Source: Aliicoccus persicus
GTDB taxonomy: Bacteria; Bacillota; Bacilli; Staphylococcales; Salinicoccaceae
NCBI RefSeq assembly: GCF_900110815.1
Contig: NZ_FOIT01000001.1
Coordinates: 18,216-55,187 of the forward strand
Length of the DNA: 36,972 nucleotides
Reading direction: 5' to 3'
Part shown: positions 14,539-29,166 of the stretch, one piece after another
Numbering within the stretch: position 1 is the stretch's first letter
How the letters are laid out: each line of letters begins with the position of its first letter
Translations under genes and position numbers: made by a program
The notes under the pieces: model-generated
Told to the model about the DNA's origin: nothing
The model's database searches: none
The model's input: only the letters and a program-made list of their open reading frames with translations

Positions 14539-15300
14539 TTAAAACGGCGTGTCGATACCACCCTCTTTACGTAAAGAATCACCACTTAAAATGAGTTGAT
14601 ATGATTTTGAGCACGCCCGGTCTAAAATGGCGTCCGCAATCGCACCGCCACCTAGTTTTTTATGCCACTCAGCGGAAGACATCTGAGAACATAGAATTAA
14701 AGATTTTTCTCTGCTGCGCAATTCAAAGACTTCCATCAAATGTTTCTGTTCTTGTTCCTTAGTGGATGTTAAGAGAAAATCATCAATCACAAGAACATCC
14801 ACTTTCATCAGTTTCTTTAACAGTTTGTCCAAAGTTCCATGAAATTCAGCCAGATCGATATCATTCAGAAGTTCAGTCATTCGATAATATTTACCCGTAA
14901 ATCCGGATTCAATCGCATGGTTGACCAATGCATTCGCCAGATAACTCTTCCCGGTGCCGGTGGCCCCTTGAACGATGACATTGCGGTGATGTTGAATATA
15001 ATTGTTGGTCGATAGTTGTTCGATGCTTTCTTTGCGTAAACCTCTGCTGGCTGCATAACGAATTTCTGAAATCTGCGCCTCTTTGTGCGACAGGTTGGCT
15101 TGCTTCTTATACCGTTCAATGCGATTATCTTGACGGATTTGATACTCTTCATTGACGATGATTTCCAAACAATCCAGTGGCGTCATGGCATGGTTCTGCT
15201 CTGAAAGAAAGAGACTGTGCAGTTCTGAAGCCATTGTGGTCAAGCGCATTTCACGCAACTGGCTCAGAATCGTTTGTAAGCGTACTTGGTTATTGCTCAT
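14539..15300 (-). CDS. istB: IS21 helper ATPase IstB
   Basis: 253 residues, DnaC-like AAA+ ATPase that stimulates IstA transposition. Walker A is GATGTGKS (residues 112-119) and Walker B is VLVIDD (about 169-174). An N-terminal helical region (QLREMRLTTMASELHSL) is typical of IstB. Length is normal for the family. Its 5' end overlaps the istA 3' end by 11 bp, indicating translational coupling. No disruptions are seen. Confidence 0.95.
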   Translation of the reverse strand: MSNNQVRLQTILSQLREMRLTTMASELHSLFLSEQNHAMTPLDCLEIIVNEEYQIRQDNRIERYKKQANLSHKEAQISEIRYAASRGLRKESIEQLSTNNYIQHHRNVIVQGATGTGKSYLANALVNHAIESGFTGKYYRMTELLNDIDLAEFHGTLDKLLKKLMKVDVLVIDDFLLTSTKEQEQKHLMEVFELRSREKSLILCSQMSSAEWHKKLGGGAIADAILDRACSKSYQLILSGDSLRKEGGIDTPF

Positions 15301-16819
15301 AATAGTCCGCCCCTCTCAAAAAGGATTGTTCCGGACTTTCCGAGGTGCTAGACTTTAAGTGGGACGTGCCGACATTCAATAGTTGTTTGATCAATCGATA
15401 GCCTGGAGTGGCCGACCGTTCCAATGCATGTTGGCAGTCCTCATTCAGGGCGGAATCTGAATGGGTGTCTGCCAATTTTAATAATGCATGGACGCGTTTG
15501 TAGTGTCGCTGTTCCGGACCGTCTGAAAACATTGTTTCGACGACTAAATGAACATTCGGACCGATGTGCCGCGCCCATTTCAAATAGCGCTGGCTGTTCC
15601 ACTGACCGTGTGTCGCACTATTTTCAGGTAAATGCTCGGCTACTGTGGTGTAGCCACCCGGCATTTTACTCAACGTACCATGTTCACATAACATCCGGTC
15701 CTGATCCCAAACCTGAATTTTTCTCGCATAAATTTTCAGTTTGAGACTTTGACCGATATATTGATACGGCACAGAATAATGATGTTTTTGATAACTGATG
15801 TGGGAATTATTATAAACTTTGACCGTTTTATATTCACAGTACTCAAAAGGCATCGTCGGCAGGGGTTGTAGCGCACCACGCTCCATATCATTAAACATGG
15901 AGAACCGTGAGCCCGGCTTCTTTTGAAATGGCTTCTGATTGAAACGGTCCAACTCTTTTCTCAAATGCTCATTATAGTCATCCAGCCCGAAACATTGATA
16001 ATTCCGCATGCGTGCAATAATGTGCGTCGTCAACGATTTCACAGTGTTTTCAACGGATGGTTTGTCTTTCGGTTTACGGACCCGGGTGGGTAAAATGATG
16101 GTGTGATAATGGTTCGCCATCGATTCATAGGTTTCGTTGATTTTGAGCATCGTCCGGGTATGCTTCGTAATCCCGGTCTTCAAATTGTCGGGCACAGTAA
16201 CGATCGGCACCCCCTGGAAGTATTCGAACATCTGAATATGTGCATTAATCCAGCTGGGCTGCTTCATGTCATAACAACCTAGAGCGAACCCGTAGCCGCT
16301 GAATGGGAGCACAGCGACAAACAGGTAACCATCAATGATTTCTCCAGTATCTGGATCGATCCAACGTATTTTTGAGCCGGCCCAATCCACTTCTACACGT
16401 TCGCCTGCTTTGTGTTTCATGACATGCGTAAACGACTGCTTGTTTAAATAATCATTAAAGTACTTTTTGAACTGTGTCAGACGATAGTAGGGCTGATGAT
16501 TATTCCGACAGACATCCACATATTCTTCCCATAGTAACTGCATCGTCACCCCAGGTTGAGCGAGCGACTTAGATAAAGCCGCATAATCCGGCATGGTGTA
16601 ATGCATCTCCCGTTGACTGGATGTCGACGGCTTGGGTCCGAAAAATGTATCAATCCGGTCGGCCTCCCAACCACTCAATTCCTTATAAGTGAGTTTGTGC
16701 TGCTTCGCAGTATCGATGGTGCGTTTAATGACCGGCCGACCGGAACCGACCATGTCACTGATTTTTCTTTGACTGAACGATAATTCGTTCAATCTGACTA
16801 TTTCTAAATAATTGGGCAT
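15290..16819 (-). CDS. istA: IS21 transposase IstA
   Basis: 509 residues from the ATG at 16819, preceded on the minus strand by GGAGGTGG. The upstream ATG at 16864 would add 15 residues without a ribosome site. It has an N-terminal helix-turn-helix (LSFSQRKISDMVGSGRPVIK) and a DDE catalytic core: VEVDWAGSK (Asp145), VPDNLKTG (Asp211), KPSVENTVK (Glu257). A Mu-C-like C-terminal region follows. Intact, and coupled to istB by an overlap. Confidence 0.95.
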   Translation of the reverse strand: MPNYLEIVRLNELSFSQRKISDMVGSGRPVIKRTIDTAKQHKLTYKELSGWEADRIDTFFGPKPSTSSQREMHYTMPDYAALSKSLAQPGVTMQLLWEEYVDVCRNNHQPYYRLTQFKKYFNDYLNKQSFTHVMKHKAGERVEVDWAGSKIRWIDPDTGEIIDGYLFVAVLPFSGYGFALGCYDMKQPSWINAHIQMFEYFQGVPIVTVPDNLKTGITKHTRTMLKINETYESMANHYHTIILPTRVRKPKDKPSVENTVKSLTTHIIARMRNYQCFGLDDYNEHLRKELDRFNQKPFQKKPGSRFSMFNDMERGALQPLPTMPFEYCEYKTVKVYNNSHISYQKHHYSVPYQYIGQSLKLKIYARKIQVWDQDRMLCEHGTLSKMPGGYTTVAEHLPENSATHGQWNSQRYLKWARHIGPNVHLVVETMFSDGPEQRHYKRVHALLKLADTHSDSALNEDCQHALERSATPGYRLIKQLLNVGTSHLKSSTSESPEQSFLRGADYYEQ

Positions 16820-16956
16820 TGACTGCCACCTCCATAAATATTTTGTGCCGCTTTGATGCGACATAAAATATTTATAACACTAATAAGATTGAAAAAGTTA
16901 AACATAAAAAACAATCCTCTAAAAGAGGATTGAGTGAGTACATCTAGTCCGATTCA

Positions 16957-17128: not shown

Positions 17129-17942
17129 ATGTGTAAAGTCCTACCAATCCCAAGAAGCACCTATTATTATGAACTGAATAAACAGACTGTTGATGATTCA
17201 GAAGATGTCATCAGCCATAAAATCGTTGAGATATTTAATGTGAATCGCCAGTGTTTTGGAACACATAGAATTAAGCATGAGTTAAATAAAATTGGTCTCA
17301 AAGTCTCTCGAAGACGCATCGGTCGAATTATGAAAGCAGAAAGATTGGTATCGTCGTATACTTCATTGAAATATAGACCGCATACCTCACAGTCCAATGA
17401 ACGGAATATCAAAAATAGACTCAGTAGAAATTTCATTAGACAGGCACCGATGGAGGTGTTCGTCCAGTGATTTAACCTATGTAAAAGTGTCAGGAAAGTG
17501 GCATTACATATGTGTATTTATTGACCTGTTTAATCGTGAGATTGTTGGACATAGTGCAGGCCCAAATAAAAATAGCCATTTTGTGTCAGCAGCGTTGAGC
17601 ACCATAAAGCATGATTTAAGACAGGTTCAAATGTTTCATACAGACCGCGAGAAAGCGTTTGATAATCATTTGATTGATGACGTGCTTGATACATTTGGTA
17701 TTCAAAGATCACTGAGCATGAAAGGTTGTCCCTATGACAATGCGCTTGCTGAAATGACATTTAAGGCACTGAAAACTGAATTCAATAGACAATATTATTT
17801 TATATCTTTACAACAGTTGAAAATTGAACAATTTGACTATACGAATTGGTATAGCAATATTAGACCACATAGTGCATTTGGTTATATGACACCGAAGGAG
17901 TATAAGCGAGAACTCTATAAAAATTGTCTAAAATACTGTTGA
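17129..17942 (+). pseudogene. IS3 orfB with a single-base frameshift
   Basis: Two overlapping frames (17129-17470 and 17397-17942) together reproduce orfB. At about 17456-17470 the intact reading GAGGTACTCGTCAGTGATTT has become GAGGTGTTCGTCCAGTGATT, with one extra C that shifts the frame just before the first DDE Asp. The distal acidic region also has substitutions (GCPYDNALAEMTFKALKTE). The protein is non-functional. Confidence 0.9.
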
Positions 17943-23176: not shown

Positions 23177-23806
23177 TTATTCAGGTGTCACATCGACAAT
23201 GATACTTTCAGAGTCTGAAAATAGATCGAGTAACTGAGAATATTCTAGCTCGATTGTCTCAGGCTCACCCATAATTTCAAAAGCTAAAGTACCAGATGAA
23301 TTCCTTCCATCAGAAACATTATCTAGAATAATGTCTCCAACTGGGTGTGTATCTGCTAATGTACCATCATAATAGACATTAAAGTCAAACGCAGGTGAAT
23401 AGTCTTCACCACTATTATTCTCATAGAATATTTCAATCATCAACACTTGATCCGGAGAAATATCAACAAATTCATTTCTCTGGTCTGTGTAGTAGGCATC
23501 TTCTACTCGAAGTGTCACACCATTGACTTCAAATTCATCACCAATACCATATCTGTCACTTTCATCTGCATCATTATCTGCTTCAACCGCTTCTTCATCT
23601 TCTGTAAGAGATTCAATCATCGCTTCAAGCTCAGCAATCTGTTCTTCAAGATTCACAATTGTTTCGTTCAGTTCTTCAATCTCATCCATCAATTCTTGAT
23701 TTTCTTCCATCAGTTCATCGACATCCTGCGCGAAAGCATTTTGCGACAATGTAAAAGTAAATACACCCAAAACAAAAACACTCATGTAACGTTGAACTAA
23801 GCTCAT
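23177..23806 (-). CDS. secreted coiled-coil protein with DUF4352-type domain (A)
   Basis: 209 residues from ATG 23806, six bases after GGAGG on the minus strand. Order of parts: signal peptide ending AFA/QD, an acidic coiled coil (about 28-65, with heptads such as ENQELMDEIEELNETIVNLE), an acidic linker, and a beta-sandwich (VNGVTLRVEDAYYTD, VLMIEIFYENNSGEDY, NSSGTLAFEIMGEPE, ending VDVTPE). The latter matches the DUF4352 (MPT63-like immunoglobulin fold) pattern. It is exported to the wall or medium; function unknown. First of three tandem paralogues on this strand. Confidence 0.75.
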   Translation of the reverse strand: MSLVQRYMSVFVLGVFTFTLSQNAFAQDVDELMEENQELMDEIEELNETIVNLEEQIAELEAMIESLTEDEEAVEADNDADESDRYGIGDEFEVNGVTLRVEDAYYTDQRNEFVDISPDQVLMIEIFYENNSGEDYSPAFDFNVYYDGTLADTHPVGDIILDNVSDGRNSSGTLAFEIMGEPETIELEYSQLLDLFSDSESIIVDVTPE

Positions 23807-23879
23807 GTTAACCTCCATATTTTTATATAATAATTCAAGTATAGCAATCCACTAAATATTGTAAATAGTTGAATGAAAA

Positions 23880-23928: not shown

Positions 23929-24606
23929 TTATTTATCTTCCTCAACTTCTTCATCATTTTCATCTTCTTCATCTTCTTCCGGTGTGACATCCACAATGAC
24001 TGGATCAGCGTGCGTAAATAGATTTACCATTTGCTTATATTCTAGTTCAATCACTTCGGGACTGCCCATAATTTCATAAGCCAAAGTACCTGTTGAATTT
24101 CTTCCATCTGAAATCGTCTCTAAAATGCCATCGCCAATCGGATGTTCTTTTGCTATCGTTTCATCGTAATAAAGTTCGAAGTCAAACACAGGCGTGTAAT
24201 CAGCACCGCTCTCATTTTCATAATAAATCTCAATCATCAGCACGTGATCAGGTGAACCACCAGCCAGTTGATTTCTTTCGTCTGTGTAATACGCATCTTC
24301 AACACGAATTGTCACACCGTTTACTTCGAATGCTTTGCCGATTTGATAAACTTCGTCCTCTTCTTCATCATCAATTTCTAATTCAATTTCCTCTTCATTT
24401 TCTCTATAAGTCGCAACCAATTCTTCAAGTTCGTCAATACGTTTTTCTTGCTGCTCTATCGTTTCATTCAGTTGTTCTATTTCATCAAGCAATTTCTGAT
24501 TTTCTTCAACAAGTTCAGTATCATCTTTTGCAAGAGAAATATGAGGCATTGTAAACAAAAAAGTACTCACTGCTAATACACCGATGTAACGCTTTACATC
24601 ATTCAT
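23929..24606 (-). CDS. secreted coiled-coil protein with DUF4352-type domain (B)
   Basis: 225 residues from ATG 24606 behind GGAGG. Same architecture as its neighbour: signal peptide (ending about SLA/KD), coiled coil (ENQKLLDEIEQLNETIEQQE), acidic linker, and DUF4352-type sandwich (VNGVTIRVEDAYYTDERNQ, MIEIYYENESGADY, NSTGTLAYEIMGSPE, VDVTPE). It differs by an extra acidic tail after VDVTPE (about 16 residues, mostly Glu and Asp). It is flanked by its own terminator and probably monocistronic. The acidic tail could bind cations or basic wall components, but that is speculation. Confidence 0.75.
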   Translation of the reverse strand: MNDVKRYIGVLAVSTFLFTMPHISLAKDDTELVEENQKLLDEIEQLNETIEQQEKRIDELEELVATYRENEEEIELEIDDEEEDEVYQIGKAFEVNGVTIRVEDAYYTDERNQLAGGSPDHVLMIEIYYENESGADYTPVFDFELYYDETIAKEHPIGDGILETISDGRNSTGTLAYEIMGSPEVIELEYKQMVNLFTHADPVIVDVTPEEDEEDENDEEVEEDK

Positions 24607-24685
24607 TCTATTAACCTCCATATTTTTAGTTTACTTAAATCTATGTAAAGCAATTGATGAAACACAATAAATTGTCAGATAAAAA

Positions 24686-24983: not shown

Positions 24984-25628
24984 TTATTCTGGCGTCACAT
25001 CAAATTTAACTATATTTTCAGGTTGTGGCATGCCCAGTAAACCTGGCGCAAATTCTAATTCAATCGTACTTGGATTTTCATAAATTCCATATGCAAAACT
25101 TCTTGTGATACTTTCACCATCTGCGACTTCAATGTCCTCATAATCCATTCCAACAATTGGATACGTCACTAAATATTCTTCACCATTCATAAGAGACATG
25201 TCTTGTACTAAAGGTGCTTGATAGAGTTCCCCAGAGTTATTCTCGAAATAAATATCGACGACTAATACTTCGTTCACACCCTCAGCCATAAATTCATTGC
25301 GTTCATCGGTATAATAAGCGTCTTCAACTCTGATTGTTATACCATCGACTTCTGATTCATCACCGACACTTAATACTTAATCATAGTCGATGTCTGATTC
25401 ATCGTTATCTTTATCTTCATCTTCATTTAAAGTTGAGAGTTGTGCTTCAAGTTCGGCAATTTGTTCTTCAAGCGATGCGATTGTTTCTTTTAAAGTTTCA
25501 TTTTCTTCAATGAGTTCTTGATTCTTTTCTTCTAAATCTTCGTCAGATTGCGCATGGACGTCTTGAGATACTGTAATCACACAAACACTTAGTATAAAAA
25601 CAGCGAAGTATCGTACTAAACTTCTCAT
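24984..25628 (-). pseudogene. third DUF4352-type secreted protein gene, broken by one stop codon
   Basis: It would encode about 214 residues from ATG 25628 (GGAGG upstream). The signal peptide ends VHA/QS and is followed by a coiled coil (ENQELIEENETLKETIASLE) and then DESDIDYD. An in-frame TAA at 25377-25379 comes next, after which the same frame continues with VLSVGDESEVDGITIRVEDA, the DUF4352-type sandwich, and ends KFDVTPE. No frameshift is needed, so one point mutation explains it. The first part alone would give an exported coiled coil of 83 residues. The sandwich is the most diverged of the three. Confidence 0.82.
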
Positions 25629-25661
25629 ATGAATAACCTCCGTCATTTTAATTTTCCCCTC

Positions 25662-25808
25662 CTATATACCCATGTATTATCGACAATATATAAAACGTTC
25701 GGTAATTTATAAAAATTTCACAAACTTTTTAAAAATGATGTGTATTTTTAATCTTTGTGGGTATATAGCAAAGTAACCGTGGTTACAAGTTGTTACACAT
25801 AAACTTGT
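25662..25808. promoter_or_regulatory. divergent control region with nested inverted repeats
   Basis: Between the broken DUF4352 gene (-) and the lipoprotein gene (+). An 11-bp perfect inverted pair lies at CTATATACCCA (25662-25672) and TGGGTATATAG (25758-25768). It is followed by GTAACC-GT-GGTTAC (25773-25786) and ACAAGTT-N10-AACTTGT (25785-25808). The GGGTAT at 25759 preceded 13 bp upstream by GTGTAT is also a weak SigB-type match for the lipoprotein gene. Operators or promoters are plausible; the regulators are unknown. Confidence 0.45.
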
Positions 25809-25919
25809 AGCTATTGTTATCAGTTTAAATACAATTGTACTCACTAAAAATATAGAACGAATTCAATTTATTTAACTGAGATATGTGATTCAAACTTTTT
25901 ATAAGGGAGAGTATTAGAC

Positions 25920-27158
25920 ATGAAGTTAAGAAAATTTGGGTTAGTCCTAGGGACAAGTTTATTACTTGCAGCATGTAATGGTGATGACGCTGATAACGAT
26001 GCAGAAGATAACGCAGAAGAGGCAGATGATACCTCTTTACTAACAACTGAAGAATATGTCTTACAAGATACAACTGAAGATGATGAAGATGATCCAGAAG
26101 CTGACGCCGATGCAGATGCTGACGCCGACGCAGACGCTGATGCTGACGCGGATGCTGATGCTGACGCAGATGCAGACGCTGATGCTGATGCCGACGCTGA
26201 CGCGGATGCAGACGGTGTAGAACAGTTCCAATACACTGGTGAGTATGGTGACTATTCAATTACAGACTACTACTTACAAGACTTCGTACCTTCTGACTTA
26301 GAGCCAGAAGAAGCTGAAGTTGAAGAAGAAGTAGCTGAAGATGATGTAGAAGCAGATGCAGATGCTGATGCAGATGCTGATGCCGACGCTGATGCAGACG
26401 CTGATGCAGACGCTGACGCTGATGCTGACGCAGATGCAGACGCTGATGCAGACGCTGATGCAGACGCTGACGCTGATGCTGACGCAGATGCTGATGCAGA
26501 TGCTGATGCTGTTGAAGAAGAAGCACCTTCAACATTAGTATTCATCGAATTCGAATTCACAAACCTTTCTGACGTACCAACAACTCCGGTTGAAGGTTTC
26601 GGTTTAGACTTAGCGGTTCGTGAAGTAGATGAAGCAGCAGATTCTGAGAGAACGCTTGAAAACTATACAACATTAGTTCCTGAAACACATGAGGACTATG
26701 ACAAGTTAGAAGCAGCAACTGAGCTTGTTTCTCCAGGTGAAACTGTAGAAGTATTAATTGCATATGGTGATGTAAACCCTGAATTAGATGTTAGATTACA
26801 AAGCCGTGACGTTGAAGAGGGCGTTGAAGACGACGCTGTAGATGAAGATCTTGACGTAGAAGCAGATGCCGACGCAGATGCAGATGCTGATGCAGATGCC
26901 GACGCTGATGCTGACGCCGACGCAGACGCTGATGCCGACGCAGACGCAGATGCTGATGCAGATGCTGATGCTGACGCAGATGCAGATGCTGACGCTGATG
27001 CCGACGCAGATGCTGACGCAGATGCTGATGCCGACGCAGATGCAGATGCAGATGCTGACGCTGATGCCGACGCTGATGCTGATGCAGACGCTGATGTAGA
27101 AGGTGACACGTACGAATTTGACGAGTTACTTGAATTCATCGAACACAGAACGCTTTAA
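25920..27158 (+). CDS. hyperacidic lipoprotein with three (Ala-Asp)n tracts and a split DUF5067-like domain
   Basis: 412 residues. Lipobox LLAAC with Cys19 predicts lipid anchoring. An acidic region is followed by tract 1 (19 Ala-Asp pairs), a short strand-rich piece ([19 protein letters not shown]) and tract 2 (26 pairs). Next come a beta-sandwich body ([45 protein letters not shown]), tract 3 (39 pairs), and a short tail ending IEHRTL. The pieces before and after tract 2 together look like one DUF5067-type domain whose first loop has received the repeat. The tracts resemble the Ser-Asp stalks of staphylococcal adhesins in being long, acidic and low-complexity, but there is no LPXTG. A terminator follows. 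Confidence 0.8.
26100..26213 (+). repeat. (Ala-Asp) coding tract 1: 19 hexanucleotide units
   Basis: Nineteen GCN-GAY units in frame, with all four Ala codons and both Asp codons mixed, so the array is imperfect at DNA level. Confidence 0.93.
26352..26507 (+). repeat. (Ala-Asp) coding tract 2: 26 units
   Basis: Twenty-six GCN-GAY units followed by one extra Ala codon. It contains a 54-bp higher-order duplication (the pattern starting at 26406 recurs at 26460), indicating growth by blocks of nine units. It interrupts the putative DUF5067-like domain. Confidence 0.93.
26862..27095 (+). repeat. (Ala-Asp) coding tract 3: 39 units
   Basis: Thirty-nine GCN-GAY units, the longest of the three tracts, located between the folded body and the short C-terminal tail. 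Confidence 0.93.
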
Positions 27159-27176
27159 TTTGAATATTTGATTCAC

Positions 27177-27204
27177 GACCCCACATTCGTGGGGTCTTTT
27201 TTTT
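27177..27204 (+). terminator. rho-independent terminator of the lipoprotein gene
   Basis: Stem GACCCCAC/GTGGGGTC with a 4-base loop, followed by eight T residues. Confidence 0.92.
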
Positions 27205-27226
27205 GTTGTAAGGAGTTTTAATCAAT

Positions 27227-27680
27227 CTGCGTGCCTATGAGCTCATCTCATAGTCAGTCAAATCCATTTGCATACCCGTGAGCTGATCTCATAGTCAGTC
27301 AAACGGATTAGCGTGCCTGTGAGCTTCGCTCATAGTCAGTCAAACGGATTAGCGTGCCTGTGAGCTTCGCTCATAGTCAGTCAAACGGATTAGCGTGCCA
27401 ATGAACTTTGCTCATAGTCAGTCAAATGAATTTGCGTGCCAATGAACTTTTCTCATAGTCAGTCAAATGAATTTGCGTGCCAATGAACTTTGCTCATAGT
27501 CAGTCAAACAGATTTACGTGCCAATGAGCTTTGCTCACTGTCAGTCAAATGAATTTGCGTTCCAATGAGACTCGCTCATAGTCAGTCAAACGAATTTGCG
27601 TTCCAATGAACTTTGCTCACTGTCAGTCCACTTGAATCTACACGCCCGTGAGCAGATCTTATAGTCAGTCAAAATCTGTT
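27227..27680. repeat. intergenic array of a 41-bp palindrome-bearing repeat (about 11 units)
   Basis: The unit runs roughly TTTGCGTGCCNNTGAGC, 3-4 variable bases, then CTCATAGTCAGTCAAANNN, with a period of 41 bp. Each unit contains a short inverted repeat (TGAGC … GCTCA or TGAGC … TCTCA). Unit sequence drifts along the array. No coding frame, promoter or terminator is evident in the rest of the 27205-27740 spacer. It is not a CRISPR, because there are no unique spacers. Confidence 0.9.
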
Positions 27681-27740
27681 CAGTCCAACTAATTGCTAAT
27701 TTTGAATCAATCAGAATCAGAGAAATTAATTATTCAAAAA

Positions 27741-28727
27741 TTATCGTACTAACTCTAGTCGACTATAATCAAAATATCTCGATTTTTTATCTGTGCTGGT
27801 CAGAGCCTCTTCAAAATCATGATAGTTAAATGTATAAGTAGATCCTCGACCTAGATCTGTTTTAGTACAGTACTTACTTAAAACACGTATCAAACTTCTC
27901 TTACTCACAGAGCCATCAATAAATTCATATAAGCGAGATAAAGTAATTGGTTCCTTATAAAAAAGTGCATTGTAATCTGACAATGTTCTTAAAATATGTG
28001 TTTGAATGGTATCCATACATTGGCAGTCCTGGCATTTAAAATGAAACTGCAATTTTTTCATATTAAAACTATTACATTTGAAACAATATACACCTTTTTT
28101 AACGTCGGTTATATTAACTTTTCTATTAAAGAATGGGTTCTCGATTATATTTTCTGCAATATAATTAACATAGAAATTAGCTTTTTCTGTAGAAGTAAAC
28201 CCCTTTAATTCATGGAAATATCTTCTTAACTGACTACGAATTATAATCTGTTCTAAAATCTCTTTATCATGTGATTCAATATTAAATTCGATATTAGGGA
28301 AGACAAGTTTTCCTAATATTGACATGTTTTCTTGAAGTGTATAATTGAGAGAATGAAGTTTGTTCGTCGTTCGCTTAAGTTGAATAATGGGATCGTTTGA
28401 GAGAGGGGATTGGCGAATCGTCCATTTGTTGTTAATGATTTCGTATAGACCTTGGAAGTTTTTGATTTCATGAACAATAAGTCCATAATCTGTAACAATT
28501 AGTGAATCAATCTGAAGTGTTGTGTCCTCTATTTTCAGATAAATATTTCTAAAAGTGTAGAGATGATTAATTACCTGATCGTAGATTTTGTCATAAATGA
28601 GTTCACCTGTATAACCTTTCTCTAGACGATTGAGTTTAGCTTCATCTTTTGTGCTGAGTGTCGAGCGATGGTTGAATGCGCGGAAGAACAAAAGTTCAAT
28701 ATCTGGTTTGCGTTGATGTAAAATCAT
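27741..28727 (-). CDS. NERD-domain nuclease-like protein with zinc ribbon
   Basis: 328 residues, start at 28727 after GGAGG. The N-terminal nuclease-related domain shows GYTGELIYD (Glu42), LQIDSLIVTDYGLIVHEIKN (Asp74, Glu87, Lys89: a PD-(D/E)xK-like arrangement) and FQGLY. A four-cysteine zinc ribbon (Cys215, 218, 232, 235) and a C-terminal winged-helix-like region (ITLSRLYEFIDGSVSKRSLI) follow. NERD proteins are presumed DNA-processing enzymes, and the zinc ribbon suggests nucleic-acid binding. The gene is flanked on both sides by arrays of the same 41-bp repeat. Whether it acts on them is unknown. Confidence 0.82.
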   Translation of the reverse strand: MILHQRKPDIELLFFRAFNHRSTLSTKDEAKLNRLEKGYTGELIYDKIYDQVINHLYTFRNIYLKIEDTTLQIDSLIVTDYGLIVHEIKNFQGLYEIINNKWTIRQSPLSNDPIIQLKRTTNKLHSLNYTLQENMSILGKLVFPNIEFNIESHDKEILEQIIIRSQLRRYFHELKGFTSTEKANFYVNYIAENIIENPFFNRKVNITDVKKGVYCFKCNSFNMKKLQFHFKCQDCQCMDTIQTHILRTLSDYNALFYKEPITLSRLYEFIDGSVSKRSLIRVLSKYCTKTDLGRGSTYTFNYHDFEEALTSTDKKSRYFDYSRLELVR

Positions 28728-28894: not shown

Positions 28895-29166
28895 TGGCGA
28901 TGAGCGTATCTCACAGTCAGTCAAATGAGTTTACGTGCCAGTGAGCAGATCTCATAGTCAGTCAAATGAGTTTGCGTGCCAGTGAGCAAATCTCACAGTC
29001 AGTCAAATGAGTTTGCGTGCCAGTGAGCAGATCTCATAGTCAGTCAAATGAGTTTGCGTGCCAGTGAGCAAATCTCACAGTCAGTCAAATGAGTTTGCGT
29101 GCCCGTGAGCAGATCTCATAGTCAGTCAAATGAGTTTGCGTGCCAGTGAGCTCATCTCATAGTCCA
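28895..29166. repeat. second array of the 41-bp repeat (7 units) with alternating subtypes
   Basis: Seven units in the same orientation as the first array. Units 2-6 alternate strictly between GTGAGCAGATCTCATAG and GTGAGCAAATCTCACAG, giving an 82-bp higher-order period. The alternation keeps each inverted repeat intact (GAGCAGATCTC, GAGCAAATCTC). The rest of the 28728-29326 spacer holds only an A/C-rich tract. Confidence 0.92.

Follow-up and report, generated by a model that had tools for sequence, protein, structure and literature searches.

Introduction

Dipeptide-repeat spacers are usually met in sortase-anchored adhesins of pathogens. In the Sdr/Clf proteins, a long alternating X-Asp dipeptide repeat is displayed on the surface between the ligand domain and the wall, and the protein is held by an LPXTG sortase anchor. 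In the available part of the source on SdrI, both Ser-Asp and Ala-Asp dipeptides are described (PMC4850167). Cloned Ser-Asp repeats of clfA were rearranged in frame in plasmids, according to the portion of the report at hand (PMC3324548).

BapA of Paracoccus denitrificans is an envelope protein with a tract made purely of Asp-Ala dipeptides. The excerpts of that paper give 891 Asp-Ala repeats, a requirement of BapA for biofilm and a stimulation of the biofilm by calcium; BapA is a Gram-negative, type I-secreted protein of 2,211 residues, and a lipid anchor is not mentioned in these excerpts (PMC5588039).

The lipoproteins with a DUF5067 domain (PF16729) form a third group of comparison. They have a lipobox, a linker and one beta-sandwich, and structures of like fold come from Staphylococcus aureus (3qfg) and Enterococcus faecalis (2llg). 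For an S. aureus lipoprotein, DUF5067 is given as 'unknown function' in the part of the source seen (PMC5020093).

Here, we describe a lipoprotein gene of Aliicoccus persicus, a salt-tolerant bacterium related to the staphylococci, in a stretch of 36,972 nucleotides, called the window. With the DUF5067 lipoproteins, the window protein shares the lipobox, the linker and, as far as its model shows, the sandwich; those relatives differ in having short linkers. With the Sdr/Clf proteins, it shares the alternating X-Asp repeat (here 84 Ala-Asp pairs), and the likeness to Ser-Asp repeats drawn in an initial annotation of this DNA is supported. It differs from them in its lipobox, which stands in place of LPXTG, in the type of its domain and in the placement of repeats on three sides. 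The NCBIfam Sdr/Clf models scored 81.9 bits, below their cut-offs of 1700 (SdrC) and 2500 (SdrD), and the best stretch was tract 3.

Results

The gene and its anchor

The positions of all features are given in Table 1. The signal peptide of bacterial lipoproteins closes with the lipobox motif [LVI][ASTVI][GAS]C. The window protein has LLLAAC at residues 14-19 (LLAAC at residues 15-19), and the lipobox Cys is identical in all 27 aligned sequences (window protein and 26 relatives). The protein is thus read as a bacterial lipoprotein with putative lipidation at Cys19. No LPXTG sorting signal was found at its C-terminus. The mature chain of 394 residues has 164 Asp+Glu and only 6 Lys+Arg. The lipoprotein signal and the hyperacidic composition noted in the initial annotation were both confirmed.

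Table 1. Features of the Ala-Asp lipoprotein gene (window coordinates)
Feature	Position	Strand	Basis
Lipoprotein ORF (412 aa)	25920..27158	+	ORF translation
Lipoprotein signal peptide and lipobox LLAA-C (Cys19)	25920..25976	+	Translation; Cys column invariant against 26 relatives
Tract 1, (Ala-Asp)19, residues 61-98, lipid anchor to domain	26100..26213	+	Repeat count
First DUF5067-like domain strands (predicted, 103-106 and 110-122)	26214..26285	+	Alignment, AlphaFold model
Tract 2, (Ala-Asp)26 and one trailing Ala, residues 145-197, hairpin tip within domain	26352..26510	+	Repeat count, alignment, model, structure comparison
Tandem 54-bp duplication within tract 2 (exact over 53 bases, copies at 26385 and 26439)	26385..26491	+	Exact repeat search
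Remainder of DUF5067-like domain (residues about 204-312)	26529..26855	+	Sibling comparison, AlphaFold model, structure comparison
Tract 3, (Ala-Asp)39, residues 315-392, C-terminal to domain	26862..27095	+	Repeat count
20-residue C-terminal end behind tract 3; short helix predicted at 401-408 with low confidence	27096..27155	+	Alignment, AlphaFold model
Intrinsic-terminator-like hairpin, then T run	27177..27196	+	2 overlapping sites found vs 0.9 expected in shuffles

In a promoter scan of the + strand (25640-27240), no sigma-70-like site was found. Upstream lie three tandem genes for secreted coiled-coil proteins with DUF4352-like domains, two of them at 23177-23818 and 23929-24621 (below the Pfam cut-off) and the third at 24987-25631. 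The third (- strand) has one in-frame TAA and, given this stop, is probably a broken copy. Downstream, two arrays of a 41-bp tandem repeat (27228-27688 and 28901-29164) flank a NERD-domain gene (27741-28727, - strand). The first array used as a query gave 75 matches across the genome on both strands, and the arrays are a dispersed minisatellite family; by eye, the units contain a small TGAGC..GCTCA inverted repeat. Judged from their translations, the ORFs at 14539-16864 resemble an IS21-type istA/istB pair and those at 17129-17942 a split IS3-type transposase.

Structure and codon usage of the tracts

The count in the initial annotation was correct: 84 Ala-Asp pairs lie in three tracts of 19, 26 and 39, lengths that come from a draft assembly of 8 contigs and may be wrong. 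The 20-residue peptide behind tract 3 had no counterpart among the 19 other rows of the alignment.

A 54-bp block duplication had also been claimed, and it is present in tract 2 with 53 identical bases at an offset of 54. The longest exact unit repeat in this tract was 8 units, a length matched in 0.002 of 2000 unit shuffles. By this test, tracts 1 and 3 had no block duplication (0.956 and 0.222 of shuffles, respectively). The long Ala-Asp tract of the second A. persicus copy (the sibling, described below) had a longest exact block of 7 units (0.083 of shuffles), which is a weak signal. A test of the best lag over all lags was weaker (shuffles out of 2000: tract 1, 392; tract 2, 69; tract 3, 287; sibling tract, 301). 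Tract DNA copied between tracts or from the sibling was considered and rejected: in five of six comparisons, the longest unit blocks in common were no longer than expected by chance, and the 5 units shared by tracts 1 and 2 (0.037 of 300 shuffles) were not relied on.

The longest runs of identical 6-mers in tracts 1, 2 and 3 were 2, 2 and 3. Five to seven codon pairs were in use per tract, and eight in the sibling tract. The initial annotation had taken the duplication as a sign of active growth. A sign of this kind is seen in tract 2 only, as one sound block duplication; tracts 1 and 3 have no block signal, and the arrays are codon-scrambled with identical 6-mer runs of ≤3, unlike a fast-slipping 6-bp satellite.

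The 84 units of the window protein contained 79 non-majority bases at third codon positions and 0 at 6-mer positions 1, 2, 4 and 5, and the 179 sibling units contained 158 and 0, although block duplication means that these third-position differences did not arise independently. If only 10 independent substitutions are assumed, the chance that all are synonymous is ~3e-7 under uniform mutation. The G+C content of the tracts was 57-63% compared to 34% in the window. As the variation in the tracts is confined to third codon positions, selection appears to act on their peptide and not on their DNA.

The folded domain and the position of tract 2

AlphaFold, run with 27 sequences, gave a model of the window protein with a mean pLDDT of 61.8 and a pTM of 0.48. 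Strands were predicted at 103-106, 110-122, 204-215 and onward to 308-311. The pLDDT was 89-90 at residues 101-120 and 85-98 at 201-290, falling to 75 by 310; the tracts mostly had ~40-52 compared to ~75-98 in the domain.

Tract 2 had been placed within a single DUF5067-like sandwich, and the model agrees with this. Residues 101-317, with both halves around the tract, are predicted to form one domain that fits 3qfg_B with a Z of 14.0 (rmsd 3.5 over 133 residues of the 143-residue chain). The Z to 2llg was 12.1; 3qfg and 2llg are putative members of PF16729. The model of a tract-free relative (L077) matched 3qfg_B with a Z of 13.7. Because its strands 56-71 and 77-91 are read as a hairpin, tract 2 is assigned to the hairpin tip.

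On the sequence level, PF16729 gave no match to the window protein at E≤1. Only one of five family proteins scanned reached the gathering score of 27 bits (L036, 27.7 bits). The others fell short: L021 had 26.0, the sibling domain (L009) 19.6, L028 18.5 and L047 14.7 bits. By sequence, the window domain is therefore classed as DUF5067-like via its relatives and not via its own Pfam scan. A profile built from the 26 relatives had no match at E≤1 among PDB sequences, so that the link to 3qfg is made solely through the structure comparison.

Three further matches were set aside. The Pfam match to TrAA12 (E 6.6e-07, 28.4 bits with a cut-off of 30.9) and the MSCRAMM model matches lay on the repeats and were taken as composition matches. 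A functional clue from YxkC-DacA (9a4z, Z 8.4) was dropped, as YxkC was not mentioned in the papers listed (8 of 59).

The sibling copy and the tract-free relatives

The domain was found in all 33 genomes of the family, a set with one genome of the genus itself. It was single in 32 genomes and double in A. persicus. The sibling (L009, 1418-3202) lies on the same contig (C8, about 724-725.7 kb) and is a lipoprotein with 179 uninterrupted Ala-Asp pairs and a second tract of 4. The 179-pair tract is its N-linker, and there is no Ala-Asp in its loop. The domains of the two copies were 47% identical over 112 residues.

The relatives come from Salinicoccus, Lacicoccus, Jeotgalicoccus, Phocicoccus and Nosocomiicoccus. 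In the first contig scan, the tract-free window sequence identified none of the named relatives, and an alignment of relatives identified 26. The longest Ala-Asp run in this gene was 1 in all 32 other family genomes and in all 26 named loci.

All 26 named relatives have a menA-like motif upstream, at a distance of 76-706 nt from the match, in some with a small ORF in between (e.g. L056). The sibling is also preceded by menA; no menA-like motif was found in the window. For this reason, we regard the sibling as the conserved family copy and the window copy as the extra one. In a tree of 20 domains, both A. persicus copies were placed together (89/81 support, below the starred level), on long branches of 0.66 and 0.44. 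A duplication within the A. persicus lineage is likely, though not proved.

The tracts occupy the same three places in which the relatives have short low-complexity, mostly acidic segments. With boundaries set by alignment columns (strand ends included), the N-linker had 23-78, the hairpin loop 20-32 and the tail 13-47 residues in the 26 relatives; the corresponding segments of the window protein had 85, 85 and 116 residues. Glu, Ser, Thr and Asp are the main residues of these segments in the relatives, and some of the loops are poly-Glu. Loops in Jeotgalicoccus are weakly acidic (e.g. 4 acidic of 20 residues in L077), so that the term 'acidic loop' is true for most genera, not all. The site of tract 2 had been called an unusual place for a repeat. 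It is indeed intradomain, but all 26 named relatives vary there too (20-32 residues, often acidic).

Other Ala-Asp proteins

Four A. persicus proteins with export signals bear Ala-Asp tracts. Apart from the window protein and its sibling, these are a third lipoprotein (L010), whose runs of 5, 5, 6, 15 and 25 are interspersed with Ser-Asp, and L011, a protein with LPATG and a CAP domain (54 bits) that has runs of 18 and 32. Relatives of the latter at E≤1e-20 were found in 1 of the 33 family genomes, namely its own. Looser Glu-Asp-Ala repeats occurred in further A. persicus proteins (L012, L014 and L015).

Four relatives within the family (G002, G005, G023 and G026) encode large Ala-Asp/Ser-Asp proteins (L049-L053). 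L049, L050, L051 and L053 have an LPXTG-type end, and L052 runs off its contig; in one of the five, an xD stretch extends over 351 pairs. Of the 157 genomes of the order, 72 matched the window protein at E≤1e-10: the 33 of the family and 39 outside it. Among the matches listed, those outside the family were mostly via tract 3. Twenty loci of one neighbouring family were taken from high-scoring matches, which is no unbiased census; 17 of them had a filtered ORF with (Ala-Asp)5 or more. An LPXTG-type motif was present in sixteen of these ORFs, and the remaining one is cut by the end of its contig. No lipobox pattern was found in the 17 ORFs, several of which have an open 5' end or masked sequence. 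The LPXTG proteins (L049-L051 and L053, L011 and the 16 neighbouring-family loci) thus have the same dipeptide as the window protein and differ from it by the LPXTG-type end, the absence of a lipobox and a mostly much larger size.

Discussion

We consider the window protein to be an extra copy, probably lineage-specific, of the family-wide DUF5067-type lipoprotein. Its three linkers would have been expanded to (Ala-Asp)n, giving a lipid-anchored domain in a disordered polyanionic brush in which charge and disorder are selected. Our rough probability for this reading is 0.55. It draws on sequence, homology, synteny, codon-level constraint and the one-domain fold of the model; lipidation, extension and the spacer and brush functions are presumed.

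After export, the lipid on Cys19 would tether the chain to the outer face of the membrane, as the lipobox suggests. The Ala-Asp tracts are expected to be disordered and, as polyanions, probably extended and hydrated. As a spacer, tract 1 would position the beta-sandwich in the wall or across it. Tract 2 would project from the hairpin tip and tract 3 from the C-terminal end, so that a polyanionic brush would surround the small domain. Most likely, the selected property is charge and disorder (spacing, solubility in salt, cation binding and protease resistance) over exact length. It may be speculated that tract 3 presents the 20-residue end peptide, with its predicted short helix, to a partner.

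The tracts had been described as stalks. This suits only tract 1, between the lipid and the domain; of the other two, tract 2 belongs to a loop and tract 3 to the tail at the C-terminus. Moreover, the linker with tract 1 (85 residues) hardly exceeds that of the longest relative (78 residues), so that a need for a longer stalk in the window copy is not obvious. An extended chain spans ~0.35 nm per residue. The linker would reach at most about 30 nm, close to the thickness of a Gram-positive wall. The 'stalk' idea suits the sibling better, whose linker, about 430 residues long, could extend far outside.

The Ala-Asp tracts in unrelated exported proteins lead to a broader reading that we regard as unlikely. 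The lineage would have turned the linkers of several such proteins, lipid-anchored and sortase-anchored alike, independently into a near-perfect Ala-Asp polymer, a shared polyanionic envelope material. This material would have been admitted even into the domain hairpin of the window protein, where charge or ion loading could modulate the domain.

Binding of cations or minerals is similarly doubtful as the main role. The polyanionic tracts would gather Ca2+/Mg2+ at the envelope, and length would mean only the number of sites. The 164 acidic versus 6 basic residues fit this idea; alternating Asp is not known as a high-affinity Ca motif, which weakens it. In the excerpts on BapA, calcium binding or mineral nucleation is proposed by the authors (PMC5588039), although BapA is a type I-secreted protein of the RTX family and not a lipoprotein.

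Nearly neutral drift is improbable. Here, acidic linkers would accept any acidic filler, and Ala-Asp would have spread by expansion without benefit. The tracts do lie only at segments that are already variable in the relatives, with poly-Glu in some. However, drift agrees poorly with the absence of non-majority bases at first and second positions (0 versus 79 at third positions; 0 versus 158 in the sibling), with a tract G+C far from the window value and with the presence of Ala-Asp tracts in four export-signal proteins of one genome.

Least probable is a tunable stalk or antigenic-variation device, the view of the initial annotation, in which in-frame gain or loss of 6-bp units makes stalk lengths differ within a clone: the units are in frame, tract 2 has its 54-bp duplication and clfA repeats rearrange in frame on plasmids, as far as the source seen reports (PMC3324548), but synonymous codons scramble the arrays (longest identical 6-mer runs of 2, 2 and 3), tracts 1 and 3 are without block signal, that of the sibling is weak (7 units, 0.083 of shuffles) and the anchor is separated from the domain by a single tract.

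SdrI and BapA are earlier examples of Ala-Asp tracts, which recur in the LPXTG proteins of the neighbouring family; the novelty lies in the lipoprotein as carrier and in the hairpin position. Among the open-access papers listed, we found none on Ala-Asp tracts in lipoproteins, which is a weak sign of absence. A known dipeptide polymer and a known lipoprotein fold are combined and placed in a new way, and this is not a new kind of system. The case bears on the tolerance of a beta-sandwich for a 53-residue charged insertion at a hairpin tip. Together, the tract-free relatives (32 of 32 genomes), the sibling with one 179-pair tract and the window copy with three tracts form a natural series for alternating Asp polymers.
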